Shown here piece after piece: positions 1 to 19,556 of a stretch of DNA of 34,413 nucleotides. The notes under the pieces are model-generated. The model was not told the origin of the DNA, ran no database searches, and saw only the letters and a list, made by a program, of their open reading frames with translations. This stretch comes from Fidelibacterota bacterium (GTDB lineage: Bacteria > Fidelibacterota > UBA2242). A program made the translations under genes and the position numbers. Where the stretch lies: assembly GCA_021161185.1 (NCBI GenBank), contig JAGHBC010000074.1:1-34413 (forward strand), written 5' to 3'. Each line of letters opens with the position of its first letter. Position 1 is the first letter of the stretch.

Positions 1-32
1 AAGCAACAATTATAAAATGAACGGATAGAAAC

Positions 33-569
33 ATGGATGAATATTCAAAGAATGAAGAACTTCATCTTTTACCCCTTTTTTATGACTATCTGCTGACGAT
101 TGCCATTGCCGGGTTCGGTCTGTTTATGGTCTCTGTGGAGCCAAACATACTCAGGCAATTCAGGTTCTGGATTTCACCGCAAACATTTGACAATCTAATA
201 CTCACCTGGTTTGCGCTCAGTGTAGTCTCCGCTCTTTTAATATTTTTTATCGGCGTTCTGATCCAATTATTTAAGAGGGAAAAACGATTAAACTATTTTA
301 TCTGGTTTCACATTATCCTGTCGTCAAGCCTCTTGTTTTCTACAATCTTTTACCAGCTATGGCACAGTCATAACGAACCCGCTGTTTTTGCCTTACTCGG
401 GATATTAATCATAACCAATGTCATAACCTTTGTGGTATCGGCTGTGTTTTTCTATATTCACTTTATAAGGCGACACAATTTTCTGCCTTTTGTGATGGGT
501 ATTATGGCTGCGACCACCGCCTTTAACTGGTTCTATTTAAGCCTTATCGGGAGAATTTCAATCTTCTGA
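33..569 (+). CDS. small integral membrane protein of unknown function
   Basis: 178-aa ORF with several hydrophobic segments (LLTIAIAGFGLFMVSV, LILTWFALSVVSALLIFFIGVLI, FALLGILIITNVITFVVSAVFFYI); starts ATG and ends 4 nt before the next ORF. Confidence 0.7.
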   Translation: MDEYSKNEELHLLPLFYDYLLTIAIAGFGLFMVSVEPNILRQFRFWISPQTFDNLILTWFALSVVSALLIFFIGVLIQLFKREKRLNYFIWFHIILSSSLLFSTIFYQLWHSHNEPAVFALLGILIITNVITFVVSAVFFYIHFIRRHNFLPFVMGIMAATTAFNWFYLSLIGRISIF

Positions 570-573
570 TAAT

Positions 574-2958
574 TTGGCGCCTATCTTTTATATGATAGAC
601 AATATTATAAAGCGGATGCCTTTGGCGTTTCCAGTCCTTTGGTATTTTCTGGGCATACTATTAGACAGATGTTTTCCGATTAATAATTTATTCTGGTTAA
701 TCGGGTTGGCTGTTTTTCTCATCCTGAGTTTTGTATTTTCCCCAAAAAACTGTTCTGCGGTATTTATTGTGCTTGTTATTATTGGAATGGGCGGAGTAAA
801 TCATAGCCGGCGAACCGTAATCGGCGCCGATCATATTACACACTTTATTGATGAAGCCGCGGATAGTATCGCAGTGCAGGTTGAAACAGCCGAAGGGAGT
901 GGCGCGGGCGATCAAAAACTAATTGTGAGCAATGTTCGTATCAAGAGGGGGAACTGGAGAGCCTGTCAGGGAAAAGCGTTATTAAAAATCAAAGATAGTC
1001 AGCGCAGGTATTTTTACGGTGATGAATTGAGGTTTTTCACGACCTTGCGCTTACCTATGGAGAGGCGAAATCCCGGTGAATTCGATTATAAGCAATATTT
1101 AGCCAACCATCACATCTTTGCGATCGGGTATTTGAAGGAAAAAGATATAACCCTTTCAAAAACGCCGTCGGTGTATTCATTACGCCGCATAGCGAACATT
1201 GTGAAATACCGGATTCAAGATTTGATTGCCATGTCGGTAAAAGGAGAACCGGGCGCTATTTTAAAGGCATTGTTGGTGGGCGTCCGCAGTGAGATCAATG
1301 ACGACACCGAGCAGGCATTTATTGATTCAGGCGTTATTCATGTGCTCGCCGTCTCCGGGTTACATGTGGGGTATGTGACACTGGTGTTTTGGATTATCCT
1401 GGGCTTTCTGAGGCTTCCGCTAAAACCCAAAGTGATACTTACGATTCTGGCGTTGAGTGCCTATGTTCTTGTTGTTGATATCAAACCATCGGTTTTGCGG
1501 GCAGTCATTATGGCGTCCATGATCCTGTTTGCCAAAGGATGGGAAAAACAGGTCAATGTCTATAATTCACTTGCCGCTGCGGCATTGATACAAACCCTTA
1601 TAGATCCTCTGCAACTCTTCGATATGGGCTTTCAACTCTCTTTCATAGCAGTGTTCTCAATTGTTTATATTTATCGTCGCTTTGATGTAATCCTGCCGGG
1701 TAAATTGCGCCCGATTTCCGTGTCTAATAAAATAGGCCGAAATATTTATCAGCTATTTTTAGTCTCTCTGTCGGCGTTATTAGGTACGCTGCCGGTTACA
1801 ATCTACTATTTCCATCGCATACCGCTTATTTCTGTTTTGTCCAACATTTTTGTAATTCCGCTGGTTAGTGTAATCGGCGGGCTGGGATTTGCACAGATTA
1901 TTCTTGGATTTTGCTGGTCTGGTTTTAATGTCGCCTACGGCGAGGTGGAAACGCTGTTAATTAAACTCTTGCAAGGCATTATTCAATTAATTTCCAAAAT
2001 ACCGTTCGCATATATTCAGGTTCCTCAAATTTCACTGCTGACTCTAATCCTGTTATATGTTTTGATTTTGGCATTGCTGAATTTTGACAGGCAAAGAGTG
2101 CAAAAAGTGATAATAATCGGATTGTTGATTGCGGCAAATATCTATATCTGGTCGGTTATCGCCGGATCATCTCAGGTGACAATTACATTTCTTGACGTTG
2201 GTCAGGGCGACGCTATTGTCGTTGAATTACCGTCAAAAAAAACGCTTCTCATCGATGCAGGTGACCGCAACTATAAGCGTGACTATGGCAAACTGGTTGT
2301 CTGTCCCTATTTGGAGCGTCGCGGTATCCGGAAGATCGATGTGCTGATTTTCAGTCATCCCCATAATGATCATATCGGCGGAGCGCCGTATATTTTGAGA
2401 CATCTGGATGTAGGTCAAATATGGGAAAGTGGTCTGAAAGCCCGATCACGGCTTTACAGGGAAATACATCATCTTGCCGATTCGTTGAGAATACCAATAA
2501 TTTGCCCTGAAGCGGGTGATATTGCTTCACTTTCAGATGAAATAAAATTACTTTTTCTGCATCCGTCAGATCGTTTCCTAAAGCGCTATCGGCGGAATTA
2601 TAATAATGCTTCGCTTGTGTGTAAACTCTGCTATAATGATGTGAGTGTTTTGTTTACCGGTGACGCTGAGAAAGAATCCGAATGCTACTTATGTTTATGG
2701 GACGACCTGTTGAAATCGACGGTATTAAAAGTTCCTCATCATGGGAGTAATACCTCTTCCACTTTACCGTATATAAATCTTATCGACCCTGAAATTGCCG
2801 TCATATCGGTTGGCGCTAAAAATAAATTCAATCATCCGTCTTTATCTACGATTGAACGATATAATCGGGCGGGAACGACATTATATCGCACAGATATTGA
2901 TCGTGCCGTTCAGATTAGGACAAAGGGAAAAATTGTAAGAATTGTTCATTGGAAATGA
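574..2958 (+). CDS. comEC: ComEC/Rec2 family competence/DNA internalization protein
   Basis: 794-aa polytopic protein with competence-domain motif (VIHVLAVSGLHVGYV) and C-terminal metallo-beta-lactamase-like domain (TFLDVGQGDAIVVELP, FSHPHNDHIGGAPYIL, LKVPHHGSNTSS); likely TTG start. Confidence 0.93.
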   Translation: MAPIFYMIDNIIKRMPLAFPVLWYFLGILLDRCFPINNLFWLIGLAVFLILSFVFSPKNCSAVFIVLVIIGMGGVNHSRRTVIGADHITHFIDEAADSIAVQVETAEGSGAGDQKLIVSNVRIKRGNWRACQGKALLKIKDSQRRYFYGDELRFFTTLRLPMERRNPGEFDYKQYLANHHIFAIGYLKEKDITLSKTPSVYSLRRIANIVKYRIQDLIAMSVKGEPGAILKALLVGVRSEINDDTEQAFIDSGVIHVLAVSGLHVGYVTLVFWIILGFLRLPLKPKVILTILALSAYVLVVDIKPSVLRAVIMASMILFAKGWEKQVNVYNSLAAAALIQTLIDPLQLFDMGFQLSFIAVFSIVYIYRRFDVILPGKLRPISVSNKIGRNIYQLFLVSLSALLGTLPVTIYYFHRIPLISVLSNIFVIPLVSVIGGLGFAQIILGFCWSGFNVAYGEVETLLIKLLQGIIQLISKIPFAYIQVPQISLLTLILLYVLILALLNFDRQRVQKVIIIGLLIAANIYIWSVIAGSSQVTITFLDVGQGDAIVVELPSKKTLLIDAGDRNYKRDYGKLVVCPYLERRGIRKIDVLIFSHPHNDHIGGAPYILRHLDVGQIWESGLKARSRLYREIHHLADSLRIPIICPEAGDIASLSDEIKLLFLHPSDRFLKRYRRNYNNASLVCKLCYNDVSVLFTGDAEKESECYLCLWDDLLKSTVLKVPHHGSNTSSTLPYINLIDPEIAVISVGAKNKFNHPSLSTIERYNRAGTTLYRTDIDRAVQIRTKGKIVRIVHWK

Positions 2959-2979
2959 TAATAAACCCTCCGATTAAAT

Positions 2980-3046
2980 ACACCTGTCAGGTTTAGTAGA
3001 TTTTTCTTCCTTAGATTAAAATTGATTGATTAAACCTCACAGGTGT
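2980..3046. repeat. hairpin repeat family A, copy 1
   Basis: ACACCTGTCAGGTTTA ... TAAACCTCACAGGTGT terminal inverted repeats (one mismatch), about 67 bp. Confidence 0.85.
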
Positions 3047-3176
3047 AATATGAGGCGCTATTTTTTGACACCCTTTTTCGCCTGCAGTCAGACAGGGCTA
3101 AACTCAGGATAACAGTAGCGAGAAAATATTTATATTGTAATTTTAGTTAGAAATGTTGATAATTAATCAAATGTGA

Positions 3177-3710
3177 ATGGAGTCCAAAATGATCCGTAAA
3201 CAAATACCCGCTGAAGATTTTATCATTCGTCCCCATCGTCTCTGGCATCATCAATGGCTGTTGCTCACCAGCGGAGATTTTCAATCGGGCGACTATAATT
3301 GTATGACTGTTGGTTGGGGCAGTATCGGTACGATGTGGTCAAAGCCCGTTGTTCAGGTGGTTGTCAGACCGACACGCTACACTCACCAATTTATGGAAAA
3401 GTATCCTACGTTTACACTATCCGCTTTCAGTGACTCCTACCGCGATGATTTAAAACTGCTCGGTTCAAAATCCGGTCGCGACGGCAATAAATTAGCCGAA
3501 GTGAAGCTGACTCCGATTCCTTCAAACCGTGTGGCTGCGCCGGGATTTGCCGAAGCGGAACTGATCATTGAATGCCGGAAAATTTATCATGATGTCCTTC
3601 ATCCTGAGAATTTTCTGGATGCTACCATAGATAAAAATTATCCCCAAAAAGATTATCACTCCGTCTATTTTGGGAAAATCGAAGCGATATTTGGTGTGGA
3701 TTTGAGATGA
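3177..3710 (+). CDS. flavin reductase-like (FMN-binding split barrel) family protein
   Basis: 177 aa; PLLLTSGDFQSGDYNCMTVGWGSIGTMWSKPVVQVVVRPTRYTHQF-type region typical of flavin reductase-like domain proteins. Confidence 0.8.
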   Translation: MESKMIRKQIPAEDFIIRPHRLWHHQWLLLTSGDFQSGDYNCMTVGWGSIGTMWSKPVVQVVVRPTRYTHQFMEKYPTFTLSAFSDSYRDDLKLLGSKSGRDGNKLAEVKLTPIPSNRVAAPGFAEAELIIECRKIYHDVLHPENFLDATIDKNYPQKDYHSVYFGKIEAIFGVDLR

Positions 3711-3944
3711 TGGTGTCGGAGTTGTTAACCTCTGGGATGATATGTCGGGAAAACAACCACAATTTCAAATTGCAAATATCAAATTTCAAATCTGCTATGT
3801 AGTGCAATGGAGTGTTGAAGCAAATTCAACCAATTCAACTAATAAACTAATTCAACTCTCCTTCGTCAGTTGGAAATTGGTTTTATGGAATTGGGTACTT
3901 TGAGGTGATATAATGGGGAATATTAAAATAAACGGTGGGAATAA

Positions 3945-5417
3945 ATGATAAAATCGAATAACAGCATTAGGAGAAGGTTCTTTTGGGGATTATTATCAAT
4001 TTCAGTTGCTGTTTTGTTGTTAACTAACATCCTTTGGTTTTATTCGGAGTATCGTCAATTCAAACAAAATGTTGAAGAAACCGCAGAAAGGACCACTAAT
4101 CAGCAAAAGGCTCTTATAAAAAGAGAAGTTGAGAGAACTATCGACTATATCAATTATATGAGAGAAACTCGAAAAAACGATTCTGTTGAAGAACTAAAAA
4201 AGGAAATCCTTGACCGTATAGCCAGGATCAGGTTCGGTGCTGACGGATATATTTTTGTTGTAACCTACGATGGTACAACATTGATGAATGACACTCAGCG
4301 GGAACTAATTGGAAAAAATATTTGGAATTTTGAAGATCCCAACGGTGTAAAAGTAATTCAAGAAGAACGGAAAGCGGTTGAAAATCCTGATGGTGATTTT
4401 ATTTATTATGTTTGGAATAAGCCCACAGAAAAGACTCCATCTCCAAAAATAACGTTTATGAAAGGTGTGCCTGATTGGGAATGGATGATCGGTGCAGGCA
4501 CATATCTCAAAGATATAAAGGATATTACGGATGCTAATAAAGCATTATTGAAAAAAAATCTTGAATCTCAAATAATTGAAATGTTTATTCTATTTCTGGT
4601 TATTTTGGCTATGGTAATAATTATTACAATTAAATTGTCAAGAAGGATCAGGAGTGAATTTGATGATTTCAGTGTATTTTTGGATAATAGCATTTTAAAA
4701 TACCAACAAAGTGACAATAAACAATTTGTCCTTAAGGAATTTCAAATTCTCGTGAATTATACGAATAAAATCCTGGAAGAGCGCCGGCGGATGGGAGAGG
4801 CGCTTAAAGAAAGCGAAGAGAAATACCGGCTTATGGTGGAGAATTCCGGAGATGGTATCGTAATTAGCCAGAAAGATAAATTTATTTTTGTTAATGATGC
4901 CTTTGCAAAAATGCTGGGCTACGATAAAGACGACCTTATTTACAGAAATTATAAAGAAATATATACAGATAAAGCCCTCAATAAACTCAAAGAACGTGAA
5001 AAACAACGTAACAAAGGACAAAAAGTCTCAAACCGCTATGAAACAGTGTTTAAAAAGAAGGATGGAAGCGAAATAGATGTTGAAGCCTATGTCACTATCA
5101 TTGAATACAAAGAAGATAAGGCAACCTTTGCGGTAATCCGTGACATTACGAAGCAGAAAAAGATGATTAAAATGCTGCAAGAATCAACGGTGCAGATCGG
5201 GGACTTAAAAGGCTTTATACCCATTTGTGCCGGGTGTAACAAGATCCGCGACGATGAAAAGGAGAATAAACCCTGGGTTTCACCCGCTGAATATGTCTCG
5301 GACCGATTACCCAATATTAATTTTTCCCACGGAATGTGCCCCGATTGTATGGCAAAATGGTATCCTGATTATGTTAATGTGAAGGATATTAAGAAAGGTA
5401 ATAAAGACAGTGACTAA
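3945..5417 (+). CDS. membrane sensor protein: N-terminal TM, Cache-type sensor domain, second TM, PAS domain, C-terminal CxxC...CxxC module
   Basis: Cache-like region (RFGADGYIFVVTYDGTTLMN, WEWMIGAGTYLKDI), TM ILFLVILAMVIIITIKL, PAS (YRLMVENSGDGIVISQKDKFIFVNDAFAKMLGY), C-terminus ICAGCNKIRDDE...FSHGMCPDCMAKWYPDY; no kinase or GGDEF motifs. Confidence 0.85.
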   Translation: MIKSNNSIRRRFFWGLLSISVAVLLLTNILWFYSEYRQFKQNVEETAERTTNQQKALIKREVERTIDYINYMRETRKNDSVEELKKEILDRIARIRFGADGYIFVVTYDGTTLMNDTQRELIGKNIWNFEDPNGVKVIQEERKAVENPDGDFIYYVWNKPTEKTPSPKITFMKGVPDWEWMIGAGTYLKDIKDITDANKALLKKNLESQIIEMFILFLVILAMVIIITIKLSRRIRSEFDDFSVFLDNSILKYQQSDNKQFVLKEFQILVNYTNKILEERRRMGEALKESEEKYRLMVENSGDGIVISQKDKFIFVNDAFAKMLGYDKDDLIYRNYKEIYTDKALNKLKEREKQRNKGQKVSNRYETVFKKKDGSEIDVEAYVTIIEYKEDKATFAVIRDITKQKKMIKMLQESTVQIGDLKGFIPICAGCNKIRDDEKENKPWVSPAEYVSDRLPNINFSHGMCPDCMAKWYPDYVNVKDIKKGNKDSD

Positions 5418-5803
5418 TAAAACGTTAATCAGCGGCTGTTCCCAACGGGGATAATGGTTGTAAAGTGGTTGTATAATTGTAACGTTTACCATGTGCCTAT
5501 GCGCCAATTCAACCAATTCACTAACCTGTCCTGCGTAACAATAGGTCGGGACAGACAGGAGTGGTTAACCTGTGAAAGCAAAGATGATTTTTTTAACATG
5601 TAAAACGTTAACCGCCGAATTTATTCGGTGGAATAGGACAAATCACATCCCAACTTCCGGCTTTAGTCGGCAGTTTTATCGAGGGATTTTGGGAGTGCAA
5701 AGAAATTATAGCAGAATGTCTCTGTAGAAATTTGATATTTGCTATTTGATGTTAGATATTTAATATAGATAATTTTTAAAATTAGTTGCTGAAAGGGAAG
5801 GGT

Positions 5804-8263
5804 ATGGAAAATAAAAGAACATATTTCATACCGATAATTTTTCTTTTGTGCGTGAATATTTTTTTCGCTTACGCCGTTGAGATAGATACGCTGAAAAGCC
5901 GGTTGGAAAGCCTGTCCGGTCAGGAGAAAATAGCTGTATTAAATGAATTGGCGGGAGCATACTGGGAATTGCCGCCCAATGAGAGGATTGTGTTTGCGGA
6001 ACAGGCGGTTGATTTGTCTGAAAAATTTCATGAGTACAAATCCAAAGCCGCGGCTTTCAATCATCTCGGAGTTGCTTATAATAATCTGGGAGATAGCCCG
6101 AAATCCATTGATTACTTCCTGCAGGCTTTGATAATCATGGAACAGATCGATGATAAAAGTGGAATCGCCGATTCTTATGTCAATCTCGGGCAGGCTAATT
6201 TCTATCTGGAAAATTTTGATAAAGCGCTGGAATATTTTCAGCAGTCTTTGGACCTGCGCGTTGAACTTGGTGATAAGCGGGATTTGTCCCAGTCGTTGAT
6301 CCTGCTCGGGAATGTGAAGGCAAAAACCGCCCAATATGATGAAGCCTTAGACTACTATTTCAAAGCTCTGACGATAAAAGAAGAAATCGATGATAAGAAC
6401 GGCATTTTCCAAATATACAATAATCTCGGAAATATCTATTTCGAGATAAAGCAGCCGGAAAAGGCTTTGGAATGCCGCTTGAAATCACTGCAAATCGACC
6501 GAGAACTTGATAATAAGTGGGAGATTGCCAATACCGCTTTTAATATTGCCGAGCACTATCTGGATAGCAAACAACCGGAAAAAGCCTATCCCTATATTCT
6601 TGAATCGCTAGAAATAGCTGAATATTTTGATAATAAAGGACTGATTTGTGACAATTTGTATAATTATTCTTTGTATCATGAATTAAGAGAAGAATACCAA
6701 AAAGCGCTCAAATATCAGAGAGATTATGCGGAATTAACGAAAAGTCTCTTTTCCGAAGAGCTCGGTGAAAAAATTGCCGAAATGCAAATAAAATATGAAA
6801 CCGAGAAAAAGGAAAAAGAGAATCAAGCCTATAAACTTCAGTTGGAAAAAGCCCGGACAGAGAGATGGCAGTTTACAGTAGGCATATTGATTATTCTGTT
6901 AATCGCTTTCATTATTTATTATCGATATAGGGCAAAGAAAAAATCGAATCTACTGTTAGAAGGTTTAGTGATGGAACGGACGCGGGAGTTGCAACAAAAA
7001 ATCAATGAACTTAAACAGACAAAAAGAGATCTTCAGAAAAATGAACAATTCCTGACTAATTTAATTGAGAGTATTCAAGACGGCGTCAGCGTCCTGAATC
7101 CTGACATGAGCATTCGGCATGTTAACGGGGTGATGAAACGGTGGTATGCGAAAAACCTGCCCCTGGAAGGGAAACTATGCTATCAGGCTTATCATAATTC
7201 CGACAAACCGTGCGATCCCTGCCCGACAATTCGTTGTCGGGAATCCGGGCAGACTGAGCATGATGTAGTTTCTGGTCTTCCCGGTTCGCCTGTAGAGTTC
7301 ATTGAACTTTTTAGCTATCCCATGAAAGACCGGGATTCGGGTGAAATAACCGGTGTGGTTGAATTTGTCAGAGATATCACCGACCGCAAGCAGGCGGAAG
7401 AAGAACTGCAAAAACACCGTGTCCACTTAGAAGAACTGGTAAAAGAACGCACAAAAGAACTTGAGGATAAAACCGCTGCTATTGTAAAATCCCAGGAAGC
7501 CTTGACATATTTGCTGGAAGATGTTAATGATGCCCGGAAAGACCTGGAAGTCTCTAAAAATGAATTGGAGGATGTAAATAAAGAATTGGAAGCCTTTGCC
7601 TATTCGGTGTCCCATGATTTACGGGCGCCGCTGCGACATATTGACGGATTTGCCGAACTATTAATGTCGCATACAGCCGATAAACTTGATGAAAAAGGCA
7701 AATCTTATATGGACAAAATTGTAACAGCGTCACAGAATATGGGGAAATTGATTGAAGGGCTACTGACATACTCGCGGATAGGGCGGAACGAGATATTTAA
7801 AATACCTGTAGAAGTTAATCCGATGATTGAGAGTATCAGGGACGAGTTTAAACCCGATATCAAAAACAGAATAGTCTCATGGCAGATAGACCAGTTGGGA
7901 ACAGTCCGGGCCGATCCAACTTTGCTTAAACAAGTGTTTGTTAATCTATTGTCTAACGCACTGAAATATACCCGACCGAGAAAAGAGGCGAAAGTAGAGA
8001 TAGGTCTTAAAAAATCCGATGAAAATGAGAAGATAATATATGTAAAGGATAACGGCGTCGGCTTCGATATGAAATATTACGATAAATTGTTTGGTGTTTT
8101 TCAACGGCTGCACAGCTCCAGCGATTTTGAGGGAATCGGAATCGGTCTGGCAAACGTTCAGCGTATTATTAGTCGACATGGCGGGCGGGTCTGGGCGGAA
8201 TCTAAACCGGATAAAGGCACTACTTTCTATGTTGCTTTGCCTAATGGGGAAGGAAAAGGTTAA
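5804..8263 (+). CDS. TPR-repeat, PAS-domain sensor histidine kinase
   Basis: N-terminal TPR repeats (ALEYFQQSLDLRVELGDKRDLSQSLILLGNV), TM, PAS with Cys motifs, H-box SVSHDLRAPLRHIDGF, N/G boxes NLLSNALKY, DNGVGFD, GIGIGLANVQRIISRHGGRVWAES. ORF track starts at TTG 5786; ATG at 5804 follows a purine-rich RBS (gaaagggaaggg). Confidence 0.92.
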   Translation: MENKRTYFIPIIFLLCVNIFFAYAVEIDTLKSRLESLSGQEKIAVLNELAGAYWELPPNERIVFAEQAVDLSEKFHEYKSKAAAFNHLGVAYNNLGDSPKSIDYFLQALIIMEQIDDKSGIADSYVNLGQANFYLENFDKALEYFQQSLDLRVELGDKRDLSQSLILLGNVKAKTAQYDEALDYYFKALTIKEEIDDKNGIFQIYNNLGNIYFEIKQPEKALECRLKSLQIDRELDNKWEIANTAFNIAEHYLDSKQPEKAYPYILESLEIAEYFDNKGLICDNLYNYSLYHELREEYQKALKYQRDYAELTKSLFSEELGEKIAEMQIKYETEKKEKENQAYKLQLEKARTERWQFTVGILIILLIAFIIYYRYRAKKKSNLLLEGLVMERTRELQQKINELKQTKRDLQKNEQFLTNLIESIQDGVSVLNPDMSIRHVNGVMKRWYAKNLPLEGKLCYQAYHNSDKPCDPCPTIRCRESGQTEHDVVSGLPGSPVEFIELFSYPMKDRDSGEITGVVEFVRDITDRKQAEEELQKHRVHLEELVKERTKELEDKTAAIVKSQEALTYLLEDVNDARKDLEVSKNELEDVNKELEAFAYSVSHDLRAPLRHIDGFAELLMSHTADKLDEKGKSYMDKIVTASQNMGKLIEGLLTYSRIGRNEIFKIPVEVNPMIESIRDEFKPDIKNRIVSWQIDQLGTVRADPTLLKQVFVNLLSNALKYTRPRKEAKVEIGLKKSDENEKIIYVKDNGVGFDMKYYDKLFGVFQRLHSSSDFEGIGIGLANVQRIISRHGGRVWAESKPDKGTTFYVALPNGEGKG

Positions 8264-8277
8264 GGTTGAGCCAGAGA

Positions 8278-8343
8278 ACACCTGTCAGGTTTGGTTGGTT
8301 TATCTTTTCCGGATGCGACCATTTCCATAAACCTGACAGGTGT
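8278..8343. repeat. hairpin repeat family A, copy 2
   Basis: ACACCTGTCAGGTTT ... TAAACCTGACAGGTGT, 66 bp, starts 15 nt after the histidine kinase stop. Confidence 0.88.
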
Positions 8344-8379
8344 ATTGCTCCTGGGCAGACTATTGAGGCGAAACGTTAA

Positions 8380-8395
8380 CCCCGACGCGTCGGGG
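8380..8395. repeat. 16-bp perfect GC-rich palindrome within an intergenic module
   Basis: CCCCGACGCGTCGGGG followed by CTTTAGCCGGTGG; degenerate counterpart TCCCGACGCACCGGGACTTCAGCCGGTGG near 9057. Confidence 0.8.
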
Positions 8396-8569
8396 CTTTA
8401 GCCGGTGGAACAGGGAATCTTGTCCCGGCTCCTGATTTTAGTCGGCACACTCACCGAATGAATTCGGAAGATGTGGTAGTGGTTGTTTTTGCCGCCCAAT
8501 AAATTGGGTGGTCAAAGTTTGGAGACGAGATAATGGAAAATTCAGCCGATACATAATGCGGGAAAAAAG

Positions 8570-8959
8570 ATGACAAAATTACTTCTGTTGTTGACCAATG
8601 CGGAAAATCAAAAAATATGTGAAAAATATTTAGGAGAGAATAAAGATAATTTTGAATGGACTGTTATCAATTCCGCTGCAGAATTAAGAAATATCCCGGC
8701 ATCCCTGCGGTTTGATGTAATATTTGCCGATCTTCCGGCGGAGGATTACACCGCATCCGATTTAACAGGCTTTGCCGGAGAGAAACCGGTGATTACTTTG
8801 GTTAATGCCAGTGAAGAGGATAAAATTGTCGAACTAATTCAAGCCGGGGTATTCGATTTTTTGATTACCGACCCTGAAGGTCTTTTTCTGAAAAATATTC
8901 CAGTAATCATGGAAAACAACCTGACAGGTGTAATGAGACCGGAATATGTGCCCTTGTAA
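8570..8959 (+). CDS. degenerate response-regulator receiver-like protein
   Basis: 129 aa; receiver-like pattern MTKLLLLLTNAENQ / FDVIFADLP / PVITLVNASEEDKIVELIQAGVFDFLI; keeps an Asp at the expected phosphoacceptor position but lacks other conserved residues. Confidence 0.65.
   Translation: MTKLLLLLTNAENQKICEKYLGENKDNFEWTVINSAAELRNIPASLRFDVIFADLPAEDYTASDLTGFAGEKPVITLVNASEEDKIVELIQAGVFDFLITDPEGLFLKNIPVIMENNLTGVMRPEYVPL
8918..8934. repeat. hairpin repeat family A, half-copy (right arm only)
   Basis: AACCTGACAGGTGTAAT inside the 3' end of CDS 8570-8959; matches the right arms of the full copies. Confidence 0.7.
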
Positions 8960-9013
8960 GAGATTATTGTCTTGAGTAAAATTATTGACAGGACTTGTGT
9001 TAGGTTTTAGTTA

Positions 9014-9044
9014 ACTCGTTCCCAAATTGAATTTGGGAACGAGT
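9014..9044. repeat. 31-bp perfect palindrome
   Basis: ACTCGTTCCCAAATT-G-AATTTGGGAACGAGT: 15-bp arms with a 1-nt centre. Confidence 0.9.
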
Positions 9045-9130
9045 GAGACTTTCAAATCCCGACGCACCGGGACTTCAGCCGGTGGATGATGGTTGATAAT
9101 CGTAGTTGTAAAGTGGTGGAGTATTGGCGA

Positions 9131-9194
9131 AAAACCTTCCGGTTCGTCTGTTTTGACACAGCTGCTGATTTTATCGAACCTTCGGAAGGTTTTT
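9131..9194. repeat. hairpin repeat family B, copy 1
   Basis: AAAACCTTCCGG ... TTTTGACACAGCTGCTGATTTTATCGAACCTTCGGAAGGTTTTT; AACCTTCC/GGAAGGTT arms. Confidence 0.85.
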
Positions 9195-9292
9195 AATTCA
9201 TCACCAATTTCAAATATCAAATATCAAATTTGTTATATAGAGGACATGGAGTGGTGGAGCAAAATTAAACAATTCAACCAATTCTTAAATAA

Positions 9293-10543
9293 TTAAAAGG
9301 AATTTATCGATTCGGTTTTGAAGCTTCTTTTCTTCAGCCTTGGCTCAAAGAGCACGTGTAGCGCCATGGCAATTATCCCTTTAATACAGCCCTCTTCTTT
9401 CAGTTCACCCACAACAATCGGTGTGGATTGAAAAGGAATATTATGCATATTCTGTTTTACAATATACCGACATTTTTCCAGCAGATACTCGCTATTTTCA
9501 ATAACTGGTCCGCTTAATACGATCATACTGGTATTGAGTAATTTTATCAAATCCGAACACAATATTGCCAATAGTAAGGCGTATTCATCTAAAATTTCCT
9601 GAATTACGTCTGTAAACATTTCATTTCGATCATCAAGAATTTTCTTAAGGGGCCAATCATGAATATCTTTATCGGGAAACTTATACCGCACTTTCATTTT
9701 TATTGTATCAATCAAATGTTGCTCACGCAATATATCACCAAAGGTATACTGACTTGTAAAAAGATTTCTGAAATGCGTGGGGTCGGTCAAATGATGACCC
9801 AATTCGATATAGCCTACCTCGCCGGCGCTGCCGTAGCGACCGCGCAATAAACTACCTTCGACAATCATTCCGGCGCCAATACCCTCGCCGAGCCAAATAC
9901 AGACCATATTATTGGTATTCTGCCCGGCGCCTAATAAATGCTCACCGAATGTGCGGGCATTAACATCATTCTCGATAATGACCGGAACTTTATATTTTCT
10001 ACTGAATACTTTTGCCAACGGGTGCTGGACCCAGCCGTGTAAACTCACCGCAAAGGCCAGTTCGCCTCTTTCATAATCAATGAAGCCAGGCACGCCGATC
10101 CCGATACTGATCAATTTAGCTTTAAATACCGGACGACGGCTAAATATTTGATCGATACATTCGGTGATTTTGGGGAGTACGTTAAAAATTGTCGACCCGT
10201 TTTCATAATTAATGATCTCTTCATGAATGATTTTCGAGTTCAAATTAGCAATTGCAATTTTTGAATAGACGCTGTGAATTTCAATCCCAACTACAAAACC
10301 GTTGTTTGGATTTAATCTTAACATGGTCGGACGCTTGCCGCCTTTACTGGTGGATTGCCCTTTACCGATTTCAATAATATAGCCGGCTTCGATCAAACGA
10401 CTGACAATTTCCGATATGGCAACCTTGGATATTTTGGTTCTTTTAGCCAGGTCGATTCTCGAGATAGCCTCTTCATCTTTGACAAGGGTCAGAATCCTGA
10501 TCTCATTGAGCTCTTTAATTAGTTTGGAATTTACGATATTCAT
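9293..10543 (-). CDS. ROK family transcriptional regulator (N-terminal wHTH)
   Basis: wHTH region (ISRIDLAKRTKISKVAISEIVSRLIEAGYI), ROK signatures (FVVGIEIHSVYSKIAIANL, GIGVPGFID, IENDVNARTFGEHLLGAG, IWLGEGIGAGMIVEGSLLRGRYGSAGEVGY). Confidence 0.9.
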   Translation of the reverse strand: MNIVNSKLIKELNEIRILTLVKDEEAISRIDLAKRTKISKVAISEIVSRLIEAGYIIEIGKGQSTSKGGKRPTMLRLNPNNGFVVGIEIHSVYSKIAIANLNSKIIHEEIINYENGSTIFNVLPKITECIDQIFSRRPVFKAKLISIGIGVPGFIDYERGELAFAVSLHGWVQHPLAKVFSRKYKVPVIIENDVNARTFGEHLLGAGQNTNNMVCIWLGEGIGAGMIVEGSLLRGRYGSAGEVGYIELGHHLTDPTHFRNLFTSQYTFGDILREQHLIDTIKMKVRYKFPDKDIHDWPLKKILDDRNEMFTDVIQEILDEYALLLAILCSDLIKLLNTSMIVLSGPVIENSEYLLEKCRYIVKQNMHNIPFQSTPIVVGELKEEGCIKGIIAMALHVLFEPRLKKRSFKTESINSF

Positions 10544-10854
10544 AATTGCTGCCTGATTATTATTGTTATTTGTTAATCATAAATTGTTATCCCGGGAAAT
10601 ATCATCATTTCTTCGGTTGTGGGGTTGCTTATCAATGGTGCGCTAACCGGAATATAACTATTTGCATTGACAACTTTCCTTAACAACTCAAATGTACCGT
10701 ATTTACAAACAAACCTAAGATAAACTATTTTTACGACAAAATAAAGGGAGTTTGTACAATTTACCAACAAACTTAAAAAGCCCTTTAAAATGTGGTAATA
10801 TCAAACGGGGGTTGGGAAAGATGAGGTTGAGAGGAAAATATCCGGTGAGCTAAT

Positions 10855-10920
10855 ACACCCGTCAGGTTTAATCAATTAATCTTATCTGGGTTAGGAGGAT
10901 TTAATAAACCTGATAGGTAT
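10855..10920. repeat. hairpin repeat family A, copy 3
   Basis: ACACCCGTCAGGTTTA ... TAAACCTGATAGGTAT; loop and left flank (GAGCTAAT, AATCAATTAATCTTATCTGG) shared with copy 4. Confidence 0.85.
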
Positions 10921-10951
10921 AATCCGTGAATTTTAATGGAATCAAATTTTC

Positions 10952-11017
10952 AACCAATTCAACCAATAACTCATAATTAATCTCAACCGGTAAAACATTA
11001 ACCACCGAATTTCCCAA
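10952..11017. repeat. 66-bp exact direct repeat, copy 1
   Basis: AACCAATTCAACCAATAACTCATAATTAATCTCAACCGGTAAAACATTAACCACCGAATTTCCCAA, identical to 11460-11525. Confidence 0.93.
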
Positions 11018-11298
11018 TAGGGACTCCCGGCGGAGTATTCGGTGGGAGAGAATACACCCACGCCAGTGCCCGACTTTCTCGAAGAGACTCCTTGCGGAGT
11101 AGTCAGTTGATAGTCCTAATAATCCCGCAGGGATTAAACATGAATAACATCAGATGAAGTCTGGTGATAAAAAGTACTCCATCCAAGCAAAACACCGGCG
11201 GTGTTTAACTTGATAAGCATGAAATCATTTCGTATAGGTGTGCTAGATACTTAATACTGAGAAATCATCCCATTACTCCAATTCACCCAATTTTCCAA

Positions 11299-11345
11299 GG
11301 TGGTTGTAAGGTGGTTGTAAAGTGGTTGTAAGGTAGTTGTAAAGT
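11299..11345. repeat. 11-bp tandem repeat array
   Basis: About four units of RGTRGTTGTAA: GGTGGTTGTAA GGTGGTTGTAA AGTGGTTGTAA GGTAGTTGTAA. Confidence 0.85.
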
Positions 11346-11350
11346 AGCGA

Positions 11351-11415
11351 AAAACCTTCCGAAGATTAGTCTGTCTTGACACAGCTGCTGATTTTATCGA
11401 ACCTTCGGAAGGTTT
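11351..11415. repeat. hairpin repeat family B, copy 2
   Basis: AAAACCTTCCGAAG ... CTTGACACAGCTGCTGATTTTATCGAACCTTCGGAAGGTTT; same internal sequence as the copy at 9131. Confidence 0.88.
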
Positions 11416-11459
11416 ATAATTGCAAATATTAAATTTTCCCCCAATTCACCCAACCAATA

Positions 11460-11525
11460 AACCAATTCAACCAATAACTCATAATTAATCTCAACCGGTA
11501 AAACATTAACCACCGAATTTCCCAA
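11460..11525. repeat. 66-bp exact direct repeat, copy 2
   Basis: Identical to 10952-11017. Confidence 0.93.
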
Positions 11526-11648
11526 CGGGACTCCTATCTACGGAGTAGTCGGAGAGTTTTCCGAATGAATTCTGGGGATATGTGGTAGTGGTTGTTTATA
11601 TCACCCAATAAATTGGGTGGTTAACCTTTGAGACGATATGATGGAAAT

Positions 11649-11667
11649 AAACCTTCCGAAGATTATC
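11649..11667. repeat. hairpin repeat family B, left-half fragment
   Basis: AAACCTTCCGAAGATTA, identical to the left arm of the copy at 11351; no right arm nearby. Confidence 0.65.
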
Positions 11668-11761
11668 TTTATATTCTCGCTCCTCCATGTGTATTATATG
11701 CAAGGACTATTTGTGTGGAGCGTGTACTTTATTACTCTTTCGGAGAATACCTGGAGCTAAT

Positions 11762-11827
11762 ACACCTGTCAGGTTTAATCAATTAATCTTATCTGGAGGA
11801 GAAGGATCTAATAAACCTGACAGGTGT
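11762..11827. repeat. hairpin repeat family A, copy 4
   Basis: ACACCTGTCAGGTTTA ... TAAACCTGACAGGTGT, perfect 16-bp terminal inverted repeats, 66 bp. Confidence 0.9.
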
Positions 11828-11914
11828 TAATACAGTAATCTTTATTTCCATTGGATACGTCATTTTGAATCCCTGATTTAACAGGGTGAATTCGATGGGA
11901 TAGAATTTGAGATT

Positions 11915-13084
11915 TTACCTGAAGATCGCAATAAACACACCCGCCGCAATTGCTGAACCGATTACGCCGGCAACATTAGGCGCCATGGCGTGAAAGAGCA
12001 GGTGATTATCCTTATCGTATTTTCGGGCAAAATGCTGGACCACCCGGGCGGAATCCGGTACCGCAGAGACACCGGCGGCGCCGATCAGCGGGTTGATCTT
12101 ATCCTTAAGAAATAGGTTCATAAATTTGGCGAATAATAACCCGCCGAAAGTCGCGATGCCAAAGGAGAGTAAACCGAGAAAAAATATCCCCAGTGATCTC
12201 GGCGTCAGGAAACCGACGTTAACGCCGTCTACATAGCGGACTGCCTGGGTACTGGCGCCAACTGCGAAAGACAATAAAATAGTGCAGATATCCAGGAGAG
12301 CATTACCGGCGGTTCTGGCCAGCCGGTCAGTCACACCACTTTCTTTCAACAGGTTGCCGAGCATTAACATACCAACGAGCGGTAAGGAACCGGGTGCGAT
12401 CAGGGCCGCCACGATAACGACAATAATCGGGAATAGGATTTTTTCGCGTTTTGTTACTTTTCGGGATGGTTTCATGCGGATTTTTCGTTCCTTTACGGTA
12501 GTCAGTAATTTCATAATAGGCGGCTGAATTAAGGGCACAAGTGCCATATATGAGTAAGCGGCAATGGCGATTGGTCCCAGTAAATGCGGCGCTAATTGGG
12601 ACGAGAGAAATATTGACGTCGGTCCGTCCGCTCCGCCAATAATGCCGATAGAAGCAGCTTCCTGGTTGGTGAATCCCAACATCAGGGCGCCGAGATAGGT
12701 GACGAAAATACCAATCTGTGCCGCAGCGCCTAAGAGTACCGATTTGGGGTTTGAGATCAGCGATGAAAAATCCGTCAGAGCGCCGATTCCGAGAAAGATC
12801 AGGGGTGGAAATATTCCTGAAGTCACGCCCCAATAGATCAGACTGAAGACACTGTTTTGAGGAGCGCCGTTGGCGACGGTATCGTAAACGCCGAGTGGAA
12901 GCCCCTGAATATAGGGAATATTACCGACGATGACGCCAAAGCCGATCGGAAGGAGCAGAAGGGGTTCGTAATTTTTGACGATTGCGAGATAAATGGCAAC
13001 ACAGCCCACCACGATCATGATTATATTGCTCCACTGCAGATTGGCAAATCCGGTAGTTTCAATGATCCGTAAAATCATATCCAT
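11915..13084 (-). CDS. sodium ion-translocating decarboxylase subunit beta (OadB/MmdB family)
   Basis: 389-aa polytopic protein; GIIGGADGPTSIFLSSQLAP and NPLIGAAGVSAVPDSARVVQ motifs typical of the beta subunit; adjacent to biotin-carrier and carboxyltransferase genes. Confidence 0.95.
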   Translation of the reverse strand: MDMILRIIETTGFANLQWSNIIMIVVGCVAIYLAIVKNYEPLLLLPIGFGVIVGNIPYIQGLPLGVYDTVANGAPQNSVFSLIYWGVTSGIFPPLIFLGIGALTDFSSLISNPKSVLLGAAAQIGIFVTYLGALMLGFTNQEAASIGIIGGADGPTSIFLSSQLAPHLLGPIAIAAYSYMALVPLIQPPIMKLLTTVKERKIRMKPSRKVTKREKILFPIIVVIVAALIAPGSLPLVGMLMLGNLLKESGVTDRLARTAGNALLDICTILLSFAVGASTQAVRYVDGVNVGFLTPRSLGIFFLGLLSFGIATFGGLLFAKFMNLFLKDKINPLIGAAGVSAVPDSARVVQHFARKYDKDNHLLFHAMAPNVAGVIGSAIAAGVFIAIFR

Positions 13085-19391: not shown

Positions 19392-19489
19392 AACAATGAT
19401 TCTTTGAGTTCAAAAGATGTTTATGAGTTGGCATACGAACAGGCTATGGATATTTTTTTCTTATCTAAAAAATTCCCAACCCCCACTAC

Positions 19490-19556
19490 CCAACTACTAC
19501 CCAACTACCATACAACTACCATACAACTACTATACAACTACCATACAACTACCATA
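19490..19556. repeat. 11-bp tandem repeat array, reverse-complement relative to the 11299 array
   Basis: Units CCAACTACCAT / ACAACTACCAT / ACAACTACTAT; reverse complement is ATGGTAGTTGT, sharing a GGTAGTTGT core with 11299-11345. Confidence 0.85.

Follow-up and report, generated by a model that had tools for sequence, protein, structure and literature searches.

The stretch of DNA analysed here (the window, 34,413 nucleotides) is contig C25 of a metagenome-assembled genome (MAG) of Candidatus Neomarinimicrobiota (160 contigs, 2.09 Mb), a marine bacterium not yet in culture, and its first 12 kb hold four copies and a half copy of a short dispersed element with inverted-repeat arms, here called family A. 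With up to three mismatches allowed, ACACCTGTCAGGTTTA has 12 matches in the window against a chance expectation of 0.08, and the four elements of about 66 bp and the right-half fragment that a first-pass annotation had described are indeed found where it placed them. Copy 1 (2980-3046, minus strand, 67 bp; covariance-model score 67.4 bits on that strand) starts 21 nt 3' of the stop of a ComEC-like gene (574-2958), and copy 2 (8278-8343, plus strand, 66 bp, 67.4 bits) begins 14 nt past the stop of a histidine kinase gene (5786-8263). The half copy, a single right arm on the minus strand at about 8916-8932, comes from the arm search; judged by eye, its flank resembles the sequence beside a full element of contig C138. 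Copy 3 (10855-10920, plus strand, 66 bp, 74.3 bits), the arms of which have decayed, sits in the gap upstream of a ROK-type regulator gene (9293-10543, minus strand), while copy 4 (11762-11827, plus strand, 66 bp, 92.1 bits) has intact arms and lies 87 nt past the 3' end of a decarboxylase beta-subunit-like gene (11915-13084, minus strand). Copies 1 to 4 are all intergenic, and neither the arm search nor the covariance model finds an element in the rest of the window to the right of 12 kb, as had been noticed before.

The earlier statement that the loops differ (except between copies 3 and 4) holds for copy 2, which belongs to another loop subfamily and is nearest to copies on contig C47 and in G010 (one of the related genomes compared below), but not for copy 1, which is merely reverse-oriented and, once turned, aligns with its homologues, copies 3 and 4. 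Folded as RNA and compared with shuffled sequences, copies 1, 2 and 4 reach z-scores of about -5 to -6 and copy 3 a z-score of -3; folded as DNA, copy 3 is not significant (z about -1).

Anatomy and distribution of the element

Each arm holds the 11-bp palindrome ACCTGWCAGGT, and the element as a whole consists of two inverted short repetitive extragenic palindromes (REPs; ACCTGWCAGGT plus TTTA) around a 34-nt loop, i.e. of two inverted REPs able to form a hairpin, as in the REP doublets known as REPINs. In an alignment of 46 family copies of 66 bp, all brought into one orientation, the arms carry a mean of 1.85 bits of information per column and the loops 0.99, which bears out the conserved arms and looser loop of the first-pass annotation. 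Once orientation is normalised the loops are homologous, and they split into subfamilies. In the same alignment, double changes at paired arm positions fill 14 cells, whereas shuffled alignments give 2.0 and slid controls no more than 2; kinship of the alignment rows inflates these counts, but a single pair, 2-65 (the second of the stem), already occurs in four standard types (C-G, T-A, G-C and A-T). Because such compensatory changes exceed both the shuffles and the slid controls, the pairing of the arms is maintained, and this fits a hairpin that would be recognised as single-stranded nucleic acid.

The genome-wide count suggested by the first-pass annotation gives 42 + 38 (80) matches to the half-site ACCTGWCAGGTKT, with none for the reversed control, so that the element is clearly present outside the window. 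Paired up, these matches make about 26 elements, almost every one of which measures exactly 66 bp, and the covariance model returns 49 matches in the genome (both strands counted). Applied to relatives in the family, the same model finds 14-61 matches in eight genomes and nothing in another six, which makes the distribution patchy; G015, which was outside the covariance-model run, also carries elements. Among the matches listed, similar arm pairs with different loops occur in Cyclobacterium, Marivirga, Balneolota, Anaerolineae, Thiotrichaceae and Ignavibacteria. An Rfam scan of window positions 1-13000 gave no family match, a literature search for CCTGTCAGGT returned nothing relevant, and the element was absent from the viral contigs searched. 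Two elements near contig ends (L043:462-527 on contig C54 and L056:997-1062 on contig C155) have identical flanks in opposite orientation and loops several bases apart, and represent strain variation, a duplication or an assembly overlap. A Parabeggiatoa MAG contains head-to-tail arrays of ACCTGTCAGGTTT hairpins with periods of 62 and 66 bp (L198:3322-3500 and L206:4798-4922).

The candidate transposase on contig C1

A profile built from the Y1 transposases of the family led to an open reading frame (ORF) of 235 codons, stop to stop, on contig C1 (L034:1939-2643). One element (L034:1862-1926) ends 12 nt ahead of this frame, another (L034:2662-2727) starts 15 nt past its stop codon, and a third (L034:2221-2286) lies in frame within it, where it adds TPVRFNQLILSGGEGSNKPDRF to the protein, after the HuH motif and before the helix that follows. 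The same REP therefore stands on both sides of the gene, as is typical of REPIN systems. The NCBIfam model REP_Tyr_transpos matches the protein with E=7e-14 and 51.9 bits (under its curated cut-off of 80 bits), and a profile of ten such proteins matches the E. coli TnpA_REP (PDB 4er8) with E=2e-9 and with the HxH and YIxxNP motifs in register; H82, H84 and Y167 are invariant in the alignment. Judging from these similarities, the C1 protein is a divergent REP-associated tyrosine transposase (RAYT or TnpA_REP, of the HuH and tyrosine class of single-strand endonucleases) and is the likely partner of family A. The proposal to look for such a transposase was therefore well founded, with a gene that is both flanked by the element and contains one. 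The glycogen synthase frame beside it (L034:325-1926; L280:3-951) extends into the first arm of the element upstream of the RAYT, and its stop codon consequently lies inside that element.

Other candidates were set aside. The Pfam Y1_Tnp matches on contigs C17 and C30 of the genome have no ACCTGWCAGGT nearby and apparently have other hairpins. A Y1 fragment on contig C54 lies 75 bp from an element, but this nearness is taken as coincidence because its full homologue on contig C17 has none. Most other Y1 genes of the family have no arms within about 1.5 kb.

The pairing of RAYT and element recurs in the relatives. Orthologues with the in-frame element are found in G015 (85% identical) and G006 (83%), and the element is at the same place in a decayed RAYT copy in G010 (91% over the C-terminal part) and in a remnant in G001. 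G006 also has a paralogue (54% identical) with another REP (ACCTTGCAGGT), again in frame and at the same place. In G006, tandem copies of a REP other than that of family A (ACCTGCAAGGT/ACCTTGCAGGT) stand in frame at this protein site of a related RAYT (L281:1395-2177, minus strand). Further away, ACCTGWCAGGT occurs inside or within 150 bp of one RAYT from Ignavibacteria, one from Anaerolineae and two of a Bacteroidales MAG, while the remaining RAYTs compared have no adjacent ACCTGWCAGGT. In the RAYT tree the REP-bearing rows fall in one region but require four changes, so a single origin of the pairing is not demonstrated. In both this MAG and G015 the RAYT lies behind a glycogen synthase gene, yet the RAYTs are 85% identical and the synthases only about 66%, a comparison of sequences which hints that the RAYT gene may have moved by transfer or conversion instead of plain descent. 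A close RAYT or remnant is present in 5 of 10 element-bearing genomes of the family and in 0 of 6 without elements; this co-occurrence is only suggestive, since all of these genomes are incomplete MAGs.

Probable mobilisation and alternative explanations

The locus of copy 4 is occupied by an orthologous element in G001, and orthologues of the C47 element are present in G002, G010 and G015. At the copy-1 locus in G001 the gene ends without an element. With some loci shared between species and one lacking the element in G001, it seems that copies can be passed on in place as well as gained or lost. Together with the element family itself, the hairpin with its compensatory changes, the linkage to a RAYT, and the recurrence across genera and phyla, this makes it very probable that family A consists of atypical REPINs (each an inverted pair of a GT[AG]G-less REP) that would be mobilised in trans by the C1 RAYT. 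The mobilisation through the arms that the first-pass annotation had envisaged is supported by this cognate gene, although the event itself we infer, and its steps follow published work on TnpA_REP (PMC6006769, PMC3116915 and PMC8266576). In this reading, the RAYT would recognise the REP hairpin in single-stranded DNA, cut near the foot of the hairpin, and insert a copy elsewhere in trans, without target-site duplication; inserted copies would then decay or be inherited in place, and any effects on neighbouring transcripts would be incidental.

Several observations weigh against this. A joined-flank search gave loci that are shared and loci that lack the element, but not a single clean empty junction, and no transposition event or intermediate was seen. 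The RAYT ORF lies outside the window and is unrecognised by Pfam, and no close RAYT was found in five element-bearing, incomplete MAGs (G002, G003, G009, G012 and G013). Moreover, the foot of the hairpin has no GT[AG]G in the 46-copy alignment, its ends being ACACCTG...CAGGTGT, and it is because of this missing tetranucleotide that the REP is filed as atypical and not as canonical. As for target-site duplications, which the first-pass annotation had proposed to look for, none is visible around the copies; most have a T on the left and an A on the right, but this pair is indistinguishable from a 17th base pair of the arm.

The in-frame copy raises the question of where the dispersed copies come from. 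The frame used within the RAYT is open in 36 of the 46 copies, compared with 20.3 (standard deviation 3.3) after loop shuffling, whereas every other frame is either closed throughout or open less often than by chance, and copy 4 differs from the in-frame copy by 4 edits against a mean of 14 between copies. That the dispersed copies may descend from an in-frame source is nevertheless a lead only, because the copies share common ancestry and none of the frames has codon-level constraint: a dN/dS-like ratio computed for the loops favours no frame over the others, and codon-level selection on the loops is therefore unsupported. In a stronger version, the copy within the transposase frame would be a self-renewing master template, the length being fixed at 22 codons and one frame stop-free because the master must remain open and in frame, and the dispersed copies would inherit its coding-shaped loop. 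This version we regard as unlikely.

It could also be argued that family A is a miniature inverted-repeat transposable element (MITE) with terminal inverted repeats of 16-17 bp, moved by an IS630/Tc1-type DDE transposase that duplicates a TA target. The T and A beside most copies are compatible with a TA duplication outside CACCTG...CAGGTG, but the flanks vary in some copies (GA, TG), and the arms are palindromes that, in several lineages, both surround a tyrosine transposase gene and occur within it. No DDE gene came to light beside the arms, no search aimed at DDE families having been made, and the case against a MITE, which we consider very unlikely, rests on the positive evidence for the RAYT.

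Slightly less probable still is that the elements are transcription terminators, or stabilisers of mRNA 3' ends, that are under selection as such. The hairpins are strong, and copies 1 and 2 do start 21 and 14 nt past gene stops, which is why terminator function had seemed plausible in the first-pass annotation. That suggestion is not supported, since no T-tract follows either arm and a terminator scan called none of the copies, although its loop limit of 3-8 would miss long loops. In addition, copy 3 is on the upstream side of its neighbouring gene, another copy is embedded in a reading frame, and six members of the family have no element at all; a stabilising effect on mRNA may exist as a by-product. 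Chance similarity or an assembly artefact, for which there is no positive evidence beyond a fragmented MAG with some copies near contig ends, is refuted by the counts in the window (12 versus 0.08) and in the genome (80 versus 0) and by the same element in independently assembled relatives, and its probability is negligible.

The window contains other repeats besides family A. Two hairpins with AACCTTCSGAAGGTT-type ends (9132-9198 and 11352-11421, 95% alike over 56 nt) form a second family, which may be another REP family; its core (ACCTTCGGAAGGT) recurs on other contigs and is matched weakly by the family A model. The gap between the ROK-type and decarboxylase genes is long and dense with nested repeats, and holds a direct repeat of 66 nt that is 100% identical (10952-11017 and 11460-11525). 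Tandem repeats of 11 bp occur at 19470-19556 (AACTACCATAC-like), with a related run (GGTTGTAAGGT) at 11297-11340.

Relation to known REP systems

The elements resemble the REPINs described by Bertels and Rainey (2011; PMC3116915) in being inverted palindromic REP pairs with a spacer that can form hairpins, in their dispersed and mostly extragenic occurrence, in having firm ends and a looser middle, and in REPs flanking a RAYT gene. Unlike those REPINs, they number tens of copies and not hundreds, have no GT[AG]G foot and a length nearly fixed at 66 bp, and include a copy in frame within the RAYT. Two subclasses of TnpA_REP (PMC6006769; Bertels groups 4 and 5) each fit part of the case: subclass 2.4, in which a REP lies in frame inside the RAYT gene between the HuH and Y motifs, and subclass 2.6, found mostly in Bacteroidetes, the atypical REPs of which lack GT[AG]G. 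The C1 RAYT shares with the former a REP in frame between the HuH and Y motifs, and family A shares with the latter the lack of GT[AG]G. However, the C1 RAYT (P0001) lacks the WQ and YIxNNP motifs of subclass 2.4, and with NHFH, YIHLNP and FE in place of WQ it fully fits neither set.

As short dispersed palindromes, often located 3' of genes, the elements are also comparable to GTAG- and CGTC-tagged REPs, TIRtrons and Rickettsia palindromic elements (PMC3733652). Some such elements are inserted in frame in coding genes, and some RAYT-like genes are flanked by non-GTAG repeats (PMC3733652). Family A differs in having neither a GTAG nor a CGTC tag, and the only clear in-frame case is its own transposase gene. 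The kind is thus known, REPs without GT[AG]G and REPs in frame in RAYT genes having been published (PMC6006769), while the literature searched holds no description of such REPs or RAYTs in Neomarinimicrobiota.

The system described here adds Neomarinimicrobiota to the range of REPIN/RAYT systems, its REP being without the usual guide tetranucleotide, and the C1 RAYT and the ACACCTGTCAGGTTTA hairpin are a concrete candidate enzyme-substrate pair for studying the choice of cleavage site. If the in-frame copy were indeed a master template, the transposase gene would include the substrate of the enzyme that it encodes, and perhaps an autoregulatory site as well. The C1 RAYT and the G006 paralogue each contain, in frame and at an equivalent position, the REP that belongs to them, which, together with the almost fixed length of 66 bp, leads to a testable idea of how REPINs may be renewed.
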